Positions 42,395 to 44,928 of a stretch of 64,000 nt of DNA are shown one piece after another (within the stretch, counting starts at the first letter, position 1; every line of letters starts with the position of its first letter). Where the stretch lies: positions 62,001-126,000 of the forward strand of contig NZ_WTYC01000003.1 in assembly GCF_009827325.1 (NCBI RefSeq). The letters run 5' to 3'. The notes beneath the pieces are model-generated. The model was not told the DNA's origin, ran no database searches, and saw nothing but the letters and a program-made list of their open reading frames with translations. The position numbers and the translations under genes are program-made. The DNA comes from Qipengyuania vulgaris. Lineage in GTDB: Bacteria > Pseudomonadota > Alphaproteobacteria > Sphingomonadales > Sphingomonadaceae.

Positions 42395-42487
42395 ACACGT
42401 CCTCGCGCCTCGTCTCCAGTACTTCCCGGACGACGCCGCAAAACATGATTCACACACCCTTTACCATGTAACCCTATCAAGGAATGC

Positions 42488-42781
42488 ATGTTTGAGGGGC
42501 AAATCAACAAGAAGACGGTGGGGGAGTCTCGTGAAAGCGAGGTTTTGCACCAGTTTCGCTGGACCGAGCTGGTCGCGAAATTATCCGCGACTCGCGAATT
42601 GCGCGAAGAACTCTCCAAAGGTGAAAGCGGGGGCTTCGAGGCCTTTGGTGAAGCCCGCCGCGAAAAAGATGGAGAAAGTAAACGGACCGTTAACCAAAAC
42701 GGTTTAGCGCATGGCAAATCGGAGGCGTTAGGTCAGGGCCGAGCCGCAAGTGGTGCGGTGCAAGGCGACCGAGAGAAATAG
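42488..42781 (+). CDS. Small hypothetical protein upstream of sciP
   Basis: A 97-residue hydrophilic protein (MFEGQINKKTVGES at the start, then FRWTELVAKLSATRELREEL, a probable amphipathic helix, and a charged Gly/Ser-rich tail). AAGGA lies four bases before the ATG. Its TAG stop directly abuts the sciP ATG, so the two are co-translated. I recall similar small genes before sciP in sphingomonads but cannot confirm. Function unknown. Confidence 0.6.
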   Translation: MFEGQINKKTVGESRESEVLHQFRWTELVAKLSATRELREELSKGESGGFEAFGEARREKDGESKRTVNQNGLAHGKSEALGQGRAASGAVQGDREK

Positions 42782-43081
42782 ATGATCGAAAACCAGGACA
42801 TCCGCCCTGCACAGGTAATCGGCCCGCTTGGCGAGCCGCTGACCGTGGAGGATTTGCCGTCGCCTTCGACAAAGCGCTGGGTCGTGCGCCGCAAGGCCGA
42901 GGTGGTTGCGGCTGTCAATGGCGGTCTCCTGAGTATCGATGATGTTCTCGAACGCTATGGCCTCACCTTGGAGGAGTTCGCTTCCTGGCAGCGTGCGGTC
43001 GACCGGTCGGGCATGCAGGGCCTCCGCGTCACCCGCATCCAGCACTATCGCGACCTGTACGAGCGCCAGTTCAAGTACTGA
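42782..43081 (+). CDS. sciP: SciP (DUF1153), CtrA-interacting cell-cycle regulator
   Basis: A 99-residue protein with the DUF1153 helix-turn-helix: PSPSTKRWVVRRKAEVVAAV, then GGLLSIDDVLERYGLTLEEF and WQRAVDRSGMQGLRVTRIQ. In Caulobacter SciP binds CtrA and DNA and shuts down CtrA-activated promoters early in the cycle. Length and sequence are normal. It directly follows the small gene at 42488, so transcription may start upstream of that gene or within it. Confidence 0.95.
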   Translation: MIENQDIRPAQVIGPLGEPLTVEDLPSPSTKRWVVRRKAEVVAAVNGGLLSIDDVLERYGLTLEEFASWQRAVDRSGMQGLRVTRIQHYRDLYERQFKY

Positions 43082-43104
43082 TACGGACGGGCTCGCCCCT
43101 GGCG

Positions 43105-43129
43105 GGAACCAAAACCTCCTGAATCCGCT
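43105..43129 (+). promoter_or_regulatory. Degenerate upstream EcfG-like element
   Basis: GGAAC (43105-43109), a 16-base spacer, then CGCT (43126-43129). It differs from the general-stress consensus in one base of the -10. If used, its start site would lie within or beyond the anti-Shine-Dalgarno arm. Confidence 0.25.
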
Positions 43130-43220
43130 GACTTCCTATCCCCATGCAGAAGGGGAACCCCCGCTTATGCTGTCCGTTCTGGGGGCATAGGGTCGGATGG
43201 GAGTCTAACAGGAGGTTTTG
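43110..43220 (+). promoter_or_regulatory. Long-range hairpin that can hide the glsB-type gene's ribosome site
   Basis: CAAAACCTCCTG (43110-43121) is the exact reverse complement of CAGGAGGTTTTG (43209-43220), which contains the Shine-Dalgarno AGGAGG three bases plus spacer before the ATG at 43223. A transcript that begins upstream of 43110 could pair the two arms and block translation. A transcript beginning after 43178 lacks the left arm. Observation of complementarity is direct; regulation is inferred. Confidence 0.45.
43154..43178 (+). promoter_or_regulatory. EcfG-type general stress response promoter
   Basis: GGAAC (43154-43158), 16 bases, CGTT (43175-43178): a perfect match to the alphaproteobacterial EcfG/SigT consensus GGAAC-N16/17-CGTT. 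It lies 45 bases before the ATG of a GlsB/YeaQ-family stress membrane protein, a typical member of the general stress regulon. Confidence 0.75.
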
Positions 43221-43222
43221 CA

Positions 43223-43489
43223 ATGGGTTGGATTATCGCAATTATCGTCGGCGGCGTGGCCGGCTGGCTCGCAAGTTTGGTCATGGCGCGTGATGCTTCG
43301 ATGGGCATTTTCTGGAATATCATCGTCGGTATCGTCGGCGCACTTATCGGCAACTTCCTTGCTGGCGCGCTATTCGGGATCGAAGGCAGCATACAGAGCT
43401 TCAACTTGACCGGTTTCATTATCGCGATCGTCGGCGCCATCGTATTGCTCGCTATCGCCAACCTCGTCCAGCGAGGCCGCGTGCGGTAA
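43223..43489 (+). CDS. GlsB/YeaQ/YmgE family stress response membrane protein
   Basis: An 88-residue, Gly-rich membrane protein with three hydrophobic segments (IIAIIVGGVAGWLASLVM, IIVGIVGALIGNFLAGALF, FIIAIVGAIVLLAIANL), the usual transglycosylase-associated protein fold of this family. Function is unknown, but homologues are induced by stress. AGGAGG is at ideal spacing, and the promoter matches the EcfG consensus. It is monocistronic with a strong terminator. Confidence 0.92.
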   Translation: MGWIIAIIVGGVAGWLASLVMARDASMGIFWNIIVGIVGALIGNFLAGALFGIEGSIQSFNLTGFIIAIVGAIVLLAIANLVQRGRVR

Positions 43490-43516
43490 ATACAGCGCAA
43501 CTAGTTTCGATGAATT

Positions 43517-43549
43517 GGGCGGTGCAGCGTTGGCTGCGCCGCCCTTTTT
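43517..43549 (+). terminator. Strong intrinsic terminator after the GlsB-type gene
   Basis: GGGCGGTGCAGC (43517-43528) pairs with GCTGCGCCGCCC (43533-43544) with one internal mismatch and a four-base loop, then TTTTT. It isolates the stress gene from the RND operon. The rest of the gap to 43734 shows no other clear element. Confidence 0.85.
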
Positions 43550-43734
43550 CATGCCCCACGAGGCCCGAAGGCCACAATAGTGCGTCATTCGTCCATCCAA
43601 CTGCCACTCCGGTCGAGTGAAAGATTGCCCCGCTTCGGCGCGTGCATTACTAGGAAAATCGCAGACTTGCGCTTTGTGGTTTACTTAACTAATACACCGA
43701 ACAATCGAAGTCGTTGCCAGACGGGGCACCAAGA

Positions 43735-44928
43735 ATGACGTATGAATCCGAGATCATGGCGAAAAAGGGGGAAGCGGTTAACGTTTCGCTGGACGGTGAA
43801 ACCGTAATCGAAGAGCGCGGCGGCCGTAGCCGCAAGCGCCTCTACATCGTCATCGCCCTAATCGTGCTCGCAGCCATCGTCGCTGCCTATCTTTTGCTCA
43901 CGGCTGGTGCCGAAGAGGAGGCTGTCGATACCGGCGCCCAGGCCCCTGCGATCACCGTCGTCTCCCCCGGGCGGACCACCGTCGCAGGAGAAATCGTGGC
44001 GACAGGCGTGCTCGCAGCGCGCCGGGATGCACCCGTTGGCGTTGTCGGCGAAGGCGGCAGGGTCGTCTCGATTCCTGTCGAAGCCGGCGACTGGGTTCGC
44101 CAAGGACAGGTCCTCGCCGTCATCGACCGTTCGGTCCAGTCACAGCAGGCGCATGCCGCATCCGCGCAGATCCAGGTTGCCCGGGCCGACGCAGAGCTTG
44201 CGCAGGCCAATCTCGATCGCGCCCTGCAACTTGTCGAGCGCGGCTTCGTCTCGCAAGCCGATGTCGATCGCCTGACTGCAACCCGTGACGCTGCCGCGGC
44301 CCGTGTCCAGGTGGCGCGCGCGCAGCTCGATGAACTGCAGGCCCGCAATGCGCGGCTCAATATCGTCGCCCCCTCCGCAGGACTGTTACTCGAACGCAAT
44401 GTAGAGGTCGGTGCGACGGTTTCGGCCGGGTCCGGACCTCTGTTTCGCCTCGCCCGCGGCGGGGAGATCGAAATGCTCGCCCAAGTTGGCGAGGAACAGC
44501 TTACCAAGCTGCGCGCCGGAGTTTCAGCCGAAGTGACGCCGGTGGGTTCCGACCAGACATTTACTGGACAGGTATGGCAGGTGGCCCCGACCATCGATGC
44601 CCAGAACCGGCAGGGGACGGCGCGGATCGCGCTTTCCTACGATCCCGCCCTGCGTCCCGGCGGCTTTGCCACGGCCCGCATCCTTAGCGGCACCACAACC
44701 GCTCCGCTATTGCCCGAAAGCGCCGTGCTGTCGGATGATGATGGCAGCTTCGTTTACGTGGTGGACGCCGAGAACAAGGTCCAACGCAGGCCGGTGAGAA
44801 CCGGAATGGTCACCAGCGAAGGTGTCGTGATCGAGAGCGGCATCACCGGCAACGAGAAGATCGTACTGCGCGCCGGCGGCTTCCTCACCGAGGGCGAAAC
44901 GGTCAATCCGCGCACGGCCGGGCAATAG
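43735..44928 (+). CDS. RND efflux periplasmic adaptor (membrane fusion protein)
   Basis: About 397 residues. A cytoplasmic stretch and a membrane anchor (LYIVIALIVLAAIVAAYLLL) precede the lipoyl/biotinyl halves (VSIPVEAGDWVRQGQVLAVID and LNIVAPSAGLLLERNVEVG), split by a helical hairpin, then beta-barrel and membrane-proximal domains. It links the permease to an outer-membrane channel, which is not encoded nearby. Start codons at 43714 (TTG), 43735 and 43756 are possible; 43735 is chosen for the GGGG upstream. The permease follows by 10 bases. Confidence 0.92.
   Translation: MTYESEIMAKKGEAVNVSLDGETVIEERGGRSRKRLYIVIALIVLAAIVAAYLLLTAGAEEEAVDTGAQAPAITVVSPGRTTVAGEIVATGVLAARRDAPVGVVGEGGRVVSIPVEAGDWVRQGQVLAVIDRSVQSQQAHAASAQIQVARADAELAQANLDRALQLVERGFVSQADVDRLTATRDAAAARVQVARAQLDELQARNARLNIVAPSAGLLLERNVEVGATVSAGSGPLFRLARGGEIEMLAQVGEEQLTKLRAGVSAEVTPVGSDQTFTGQVWQVAPTIDAQNRQGTARIALSYDPALRPGGFATARILSGTTTAPLLPESAVLSDDDGSFVYVVDAENKVQRRPVRTGMVTSEGVVIESGITGNEKIVLRAGGFLTEGETVNPRTAGQ

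Follow-up and report, generated by a model that had tools for sequence, protein, structure and literature searches.

Making the translation of a gene depend on the promoter from which its RNA was started, by hiding the ribosome site in one transcript and not in the other, is not a new principle: it is known from the bacteriophage T4 genes e and I-TevI. In gene e, which codes for lysozyme, the long early transcripts hide the ribosome site, whereas two late promoters located just upstream of the gene give well-translated RNA that does not include the 5' strand of the helix; the difference, established by experiment, was reported to be 100-fold (PMC3014915). I-TevI has been described in the same way, with similar arrangements for I-TevII, I-TevIII, segB, and mobE (PMC2988022), and the T4 genes soc and 49 have been grouped with gene e and I-TevI as being of the same type (PMC3014915, PMC2988022). 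A narrow search of the open-access literature revealed no recognizable bacterial chromosomal counterpart of the T4-type lock among the matches listed. Likewise, no such leader was found among the matches listed for open-access papers on the GlsB/YeaQ/YmgE proteins. A related arrangement protects the IS10 transposase gene from outside transcription: RNA started outside folds over the ribosome site, whereas RNA from its own promoter does not. IS10, however, is a mobile element with the inverted repeat at the element end, which sets it apart from the glsB gene described here.

The promoters that would be relevant to this gene are those of the EcfG type. In Sphingopyxis, such promoters have a flexible -10 box, with up to 14 variants, and their output has been reported to depend on the sequence of the spacer (PMC7083833). 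The table of motif matches in S. melonis includes a few that end in CGCT, with scores, among the matches listed, below that paper's cut-off of 10 (PMC6599016).

Genomic locus and promoter elements

The window, i.e., the whole stretch of 64,000 nucleotides that was analyzed and in which all positions are counted (Table 1), comes from the genome of the marine bacterium Qipengyuania vulgaris (3,233,171 bases, or 3.23 Mb), whose GTDB genus includes Qipengyuania- and Erythrobacter-like species. It contains two genes on the same strand with 141 bases between them. The first codes for a DUF1153 protein that we take to be SciP, presumably the product of a cell-cycle gene. The second codes for a small membrane protein with a score of 49.9 bits against PF04226 (cut-off, 25.3), which places it in the GlsB/YeaQ/YmgE group; we assume glsB to be the appropriate gene name. 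A glsB match is found downstream on the same strand in 68 of the 80 SciP loci; the 12 loci with no such match were removed from the set, along with the duplicates L001 and L002. On the other side of sciP there is a 97-aa reading frame (42488-42781) with no Pfam match, whose stop codon abuts the sciP start (TAGATG). The longest invariant run among the five genomes that carry the arm (see below), 29 nt at 42764-42792, is found at this junction, and its conservation suggests that translation of the 97-aa frame and sciP is coupled.

Table 1. Positions of genes and of observed or predicted sequence elements at the sciP-glsB locus of the window
Feature	Position	Strand	Sequence or product	Basis and remarks
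sciP-like gene	42782-43081	+	99 aa	Pfam DUF1153 PF06627, E 5.5e-41; source of any read-through RNA
H1, predicted hairpin	43092-43106	+	CTCGCC-CCT-GGCGGG	MFE folds; directly 3' of sciP stop; swap peak at 43097, 1.5 kcal/mol
P2, upstream EcfG-like promoter element	43105-43129	+	GGAAC-N16-CGCT	Encloses the arm
Anti-Shine-Dalgarno arm	43110-43121	+	CAAAACCTCCTG	First 12 of the 16 P2 spacer bases
H2, predicted hairpin	43139-43156	+	TCCCC...GGGGA	Single-sequence folds; approximately at the start of the P2 transcript; swap peak at 43142, 3.0 kcal/mol
P1, EcfG-type promoter	43154-43178	+	GGAAC-N16-CGTT	Sequence
H3, predicted hairpin region	43160-43202 (limits approximate)	+		Folds; around the P1 -10 box; swap peak at 43177-43181, 3.4-3.5 kcal/mol
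glsB ribosome site	43209-43220	+	CAGGAGGTTTTG	Sequence; partner of the arm
glsB	43223-43489	+	Small membrane protein of GlsB/YeaQ/YmgE type, 88 aa	Pfam Transgly_assoc PF04226, E 3.7e-13
Intrinsic terminator-like site	43517-43544	+		Consensus scan; after glsB

A simple consensus scan of positions 42700-43700 detected no plus-strand intrinsic terminator in the sciP-glsB spacer. The hairpin H1 lacks a T-run and was not reported by the terminator scan, and is therefore not an intrinsic terminator. No known structured RNA family was recognized at this locus in a scan of positions 42400-43900 against Rfam 15, in which nothing reached the gathering score and the sciP-glsB spacer had no matches at all; the matches to sbrA and GlsR7 (43490-43551 and 43739-43796, respectively), located 3' of the glsB coding region, are far below gathering and were judged to be due to chance.

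The original prediction, made from the sequence of this region, was that a 12-nt arm upstream of glsB blocks its ribosome site in some transcripts and not in others, owing to an EcfG-type promoter that lies between the two complementary segments. This promoter, P1, is located where it had been placed and has the complete set of EcfG features (GGAAC, a spacer of 16-17 bases, and CGTT). The current analysis revealed that the arm itself is embedded in a second promoter-like element, P2, whereas P1 alone had been named before. P2 consists of a GGAAC box (43105-43109), a 16-base spacer (43110-43125), and CGCT (43126-43129), so that it has the expected -35 box and spacing and a -10 box that is one base off the consensus CGTT. 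Compared to the sphingomonad EcfG promoters, P1 is an exact GGAAC-N16-CGTT and P2 is similar in its -35 box and N16 spacing (PMC7083833, PMC6599016) but differs in its -10 box, CGCT, which is not known to be among the boxes named for Sphingopyxis (PMC7083833). Searches of the entire genome showed no enrichment of GGAAC-N16/17-CGCT (77 matches versus 110 in the reversed control), so that the idea of CGCT as a genome-wide -10 box was rejected, and none of the CGTT form (49 versus 80). Given the CGCT box and the absence of genome-wide enrichment, P2 is referred to here as EcfG-like only. We infer its role as a promoter from the constancy of its position and spacing in the genus; genome statistics do not contribute to this inference.

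The distribution of the two elements was analyzed in a sample of 60 genomes of the genus, with the 4 genomes that had no match to the region left out. Among the remaining 56, P2 is found in 41 and an intact P1 (GGAAC-N15..17-CGTT) in 32: both are present in 20 genomes and neither in 3, and the 21 genomes with P2 and no intact P1, together with the 12 in which the reverse is true, indicate a turnover of promoters within the genus. Within the set of 37 distinct genus spacers that contain it, P2 starts 116-122 bases 5' of the glsB start, and 36 of them have the N16 spacing. This tally treated each group of identical spacers as one (124 spacers, 108 of them distinct); it covers 49 genus spacers (P2 in 37 and P1 in 25), the other 7 being identical to the named loci. 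By eye, the more distant genera appear to have a single GGAAC...CGTT element that lies closer to the gene.

RNA started at either P1 or P2 would begin 3' of the arm. The arm would therefore be present only in RNA that comes from further upstream, which in practice means sciP. Inclusion of the arm by read-through from sciP had been suggested earlier; the important correction is that the arm itself belongs to promoter DNA, that of P2, and is excluded by the position of both elements.

Complementarity between the arm and the ribosome site

The exact 12-nt reverse complement was described correctly with regard to both sequence and coordinates: CAAAACCTCCTG and CAGGAGGTTTTG can form 12 base pairs out of 12, with 87 nt between the two arms and a calculated duplex energy of -20.0 kcal/mol. 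Within the 43060-43260 region, a repeat finder reported this pair and no other inverted repeat of 8 nt or longer. With up to one mismatch allowed, the window contains these two matches to the 12-mer alone, versus 0.22 expected from shuffled sequences, and in the whole genome the 12-mer is present at these two sites only. A gene on the reverse strand that would use the arm as its own ribosome site was considered and rejected, as the window sequence has no ATG at a suitable distance.

The match had also been said to be very unlikely by chance, and the comparison with other genes agrees. In 464 kb of the genome, comprising the window and twenty 20-kb stretches, a simple gene-prediction script predicted 386 genes, 204 of them with a Shine-Dalgarno sequence of 4 nt or more. 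For glsB, the longest complement of this sequence in the upstream region is 12 nt, making the gene an outlier in this set; the runner-up length, 8 nt, is found in 3 genes. When upstream regions were swapped between genes, complements of at least 12 nt were seen in 0.0004 of the 20,400 draws and in 0.0008 of the 5,300 draws that were limited to the 53 genes whose site is 5 nt or longer, with both figures including chance re-pairings of glsB with itself.

Predicted opening of the ribosome site and folding of the leader

The energy needed to open the glsB ribosome site was computed for read-through RNA containing 0, 60, or 150 nt of sciP and for RNAs with several assumed P2 and P1 start points. 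Folding the long and short leaders had been proposed as a check on the switch, and for the window it gave the expected difference: the predicted opening energies are 11.8, 11.3, and 11.1 kcal/mol for the read-through RNA with 0, 60, and 150 nt of sciP, respectively, versus 0.2-2.2 kcal/mol for the P2 RNA (six assumed start points) and 1.7-2.0 kcal/mol for the P1 RNA. Barring the arm from pairing lowered the cost from 11.3 to 5.5 kcal/mol; the arm would thus account for approximately half of it, with other upstream bases partly substituting for the arm. Similar values were predicted for all five arm-carrying genomes. Their read-through RNAs would require 7.5-14.2 kcal/mol, and at least 10 kcal/mol in 13 of the 15 tests (five genomes at three lengths); the four carriers other than the window genome fall at 10.3-14.0 kcal/mol with the spacer alone and at 7.5-14.2 kcal/mol with 60 or 150 nt of sciP. 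The corresponding values are 0.6-3.7 kcal/mol for the P2 RNAs of the five genomes and 0.3-2.0 kcal/mol for the P1 RNAs of four (the carrier G057 has no intact P1); with further assumed start points, these ranges become 0.2-4.1 and 0.2-2.2 kcal/mol, the P2 RNAs of the other four carriers taking 2.1-4.1 kcal/mol. With the arm barred from pairing, the predicted cost is 2.5-5.2 kcal/mol in the other four carriers and 2.5-5.5 kcal/mol in all five.

The upstream swaps, as well as the fold z-scores and the exchange test described below, were performed on the 43 distinct spacers that contain P2. When the upstream parts of the 43 genomes were swapped, only 0-7% of the 42 foreign upstreams were predicted to equal the lock that a carrier's own upstream places on its site, and all of those came from other carriers. 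Among 40 shuffled upstreams, none gave an equal lock for four of the carriers, and 5% did so for G004.

The explanation that we tentatively favor, with slightly less than even confidence, is that translation of glsB, a chromosomal stress gene, is locked in a promoter-dependent manner, with a lock of the T4 gene e/I-TevI type that is restricted to one small clade. Read-through RNA from sciP would carry the arm, which would pair in cis with the glsB ribosome site around the hairpins H2 and H3 and keep ribosomes off; RNA started at P2 or P1 would begin 3' of the arm and leave the site open to translation. GlsB would then be produced exclusively from RNA initiated by the general-stress sigma factor, and sciP leakage would not contribute. 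The parallel to gene e is that a long upstream transcript would hold the 5' strand of a helix over the ribosome site and that nearer promoters exclude this strand (PMC3014915); moreover, the late promoter of related phages is said to lie in the DNA that codes for the 5' strand, as P2 does here (PMC3014915, PMC2988022). However, the T4 cases are phage genes with phage late promoters and have been demonstrated experimentally, whereas glsB is a chromosomal gene with stress-type promoters, for which the layout comes from the sequence and the predicted folds; from this layout we infer the use of P1 and P2, the read-through RNA, and the block of translation. Also, unlike in the T4 genes, the arms at glsB are 87 nt apart and enclose two predicted hairpins.

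The hairpins were evaluated in an exchange test, in which the 5' part of the spacer from one genome was joined to the 3' part from another one, across clades, giving 396 hybrids per cut point. The folding cost of such swaps is approximately zero in the coding part (-0.1 to 0.2 kcal/mol) and peaks within the spacer (Table 1), which points to three hairpins, H1 to H3, with halves that are matched within lineages. In the stretch from H2 to H3 and beyond H3, swaps with the clade of eight genomes that includes the window genome (see below) cost 2.4-3.3 kcal/mol and the others 0.6-1.0 kcal/mol; the extra cost is consistent with pairing of the arm. The evidence for H2 and H3 consists of this test and the fold z-scores. 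In the 43 related sequences, the leaders that follow P2 fold better than their shuffles, with a mean z of -1.88, the window's own value being +0.56; the whole leader of the window folds no better than shuffles (z of -0.59). The RNAalifold consensus has 0 pairs for the 43 sequences and 5 pairs for 17 sequences, with the hairpins not recovered across the genus; there is little covariation among the 21 pairs that it has for the clade of eight. Two of the hairpins overlap a GGAAC (-35) box with their 3' strand: H1 that of P2, and H2 that of P1.

Distribution, conservation, and decay of the arm

In the tree of sciP and glsB, the clade of eight (support, 99/92; inner two-way groups, 80-89 bootstrap where not starred) includes the window genome and consists of three sublineages: (G000, G001), (G054, (G032, G004)), and (Q. 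huizhouensis L034, (G022, G057)). The 12-mer of the arm is found in 5 of the 56 genus genomes, all of them in this clade and spread over all three of its sublineages, and the remaining 51 lack it. Only in the window does the complement to the genome's own ribosome site run for 12 nt without a break; it is 11 nt in G022 and G057 and is split into 7 and 4 nt around a mismatch in G032 and G004. Among 397 genomes of the family, 10 of them from the genus, a perfect arm with the -10 box is present in 2 (the window genome and G022) and a version with one mismatch in 6 more.

According to the original prediction, related genomes that keep the promoter and lack the arm would speak against the switch. 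Such genomes make up most of the genus (of the 56, P2 is found in 41, P1 in 32, and the arm in 5), as well as 3 of the 8 members of the clade, so the switch survives only as a lineage-restricted device. An anti-ribosome-site switch common to the entire genus was rejected, because the genomes outside the clade gain no advantage in locking from their own upstreams over foreign ones and the 12-mer is confined to 5 of the 56 genomes. The prediction of a promoter-dependent switch is partly supported: in its favor are the presence of a promoter between the arms, the lack of a recognized terminator, the predicted opening energies, and the conservation of the arm in the five carriers, and against it are the occurrence of the promoter without the arm in most of the genus, the shorter or interrupted complement in four of the five carriers, and the absence of covariation (see below).

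In the five carriers, a 28-nt block (43102-43129) that extends from the -35 to the -10 box of P2, with the arm inside, does not show a single change and ranks second in length among the invariant runs of the 1.74-kb alignment, while 34% of the non-motif spacer columns are invariant (35 of 102, with gap columns counted as variable). At coding distances of 0.10-0.15, all eight carrier pairs are identical at 16 of the 16 positions of the P2 spacer, whereas the 86 other pairs have a mean of 8.4-8.8 identities and a maximum of 13; this comparison used 41 of the 43 distinct P2 spacers. In simulations on the tree, at least 5 of the 8 leaves were identical at all 16 sites in 29% of the runs at a relative rate of 0.5, 2.7% at a rate of 1, 0.2% at 1.5, 0.01% at 2, and 0 of 40,000 at 2.5 or more; a relative rate of about 3 is needed to obtain the invariant fraction seen in the spacer. 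The five carriers were picked after their shared arm had been seen, so these conservation tests are partly post hoc and their figures are somewhat overstated.

The same conserved block is an argument for the main rival explanation, a constraint at the level of DNA, under which the P2 spacer would be the site of a regulator or would have a shape that sets the strength of P2, and its complementarity to the ribosome site would be incidental. The block covers all of P2 and includes bases that are not needed for pairing, such as the GAATC before the -10 box, whose conservation pairing does not explain; the spacer sequence has been reported to alter the output of EcfG promoters in Sphingopyxis (PMC7083833); and the three sister genomes that lost the arm, with no compensation, are in line with the gain and loss of such a site. 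However, this explanation needs a separate coincidence to account for the perfect 12-nt complement (0.0004 per gene by exchange), and the P2 spacers vary elsewhere in the genus. On balance, we consider it unlikely, if worth keeping in mind.

The three clade members with altered arms are G001, G054, and Q. huizhouensis L034. Covariation of the two arms in the sciP-glsB spacer had been suggested as a check, and no compensatory covariation was found. In all three lineages, pairing with the present ribosome site would be stronger for the ancestral arm than for the existing one (-13.1 versus -11.7 kcal/mol in G001, -10.5 versus -8.2 in G054, and -20.2 versus -8.9 in L034), which indicates decay, not compensation. 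Compensatory evolution in G054 and G001, where both the arm and the site have changed, was thus discarded on the basis of the duplex energies. In G001 (locus L008), the altered arm has a different predicted partner, formed by the 3' part of the ribosome site together with the region where glsB starts; this effect is gone when 150 nt of sciP are included (opening energy of 2.3 kcal/mol).

Outside the clade, the 35 other genomes with P2 have a mean predicted opening energy of 4.91 kcal/mol with their own upstreams, 4.78 with exchanged ones, and 3.49 with shuffled ones, and the mean share of foreign upstreams that are at least as good as the own one is 0.51. There, the promoter region seems to hide the site in a generic way, and not as a matched lock would. 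Such background pairing would also be expected if the arm were an accident of one lineage with no function, an A- and pyrimidine-rich spacer that happens to match a very common CAGGAGG site. The CAGGAGG core is shared by most of the aligned relatives, so that only CCTCCTG and a short A-run had to arise, and the arm has been altered in 3 of the 8 members of the clade. Against an accident stands the finding that none of the 16 spacer bases has changed in the five genomes, in contrast to the turnover at other spacer columns, which makes this explanation rather improbable. Finally, the action of the arm in trans, with a sciP mRNA that ends just past H1 and the arm and uses its anti-ribosome-site tail to repress the glsB mRNA from P1 or P2, would take advantage of H1 at the sciP 3' end, whose halves match better within than between clades, and of the arm just 3' of it, but it is highly improbable, as the scan recognized no terminator at that end of sciP and 12 nt would make a short tail.

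Implications

The lineage-restricted translation lock, if it exists, would mean that a bacterial chromosome uses the strategy of T4 lysozyme, keeping a stress gene silent despite the transcription of its neighbor and doing so without a terminator. The same layout can be searched for elsewhere by annotators, as anti-ribosome-site arms that lie just upstream of, or inside, promoters of alternative sigma factors. It would also mean that the spacer sequence of a promoter has been selected for its role as RNA. A more doubtful, though still reasonable, possibility is that the 16-base stretch has been selected twice, as the spacer between the -35 and -10 boxes of a stress promoter and as the RNA strand that closes the ribosome site in any transcript initiated at another place. 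In that case, the stress sigma factor would set both the amount of glsB RNA and which glsB RNA is translatable.
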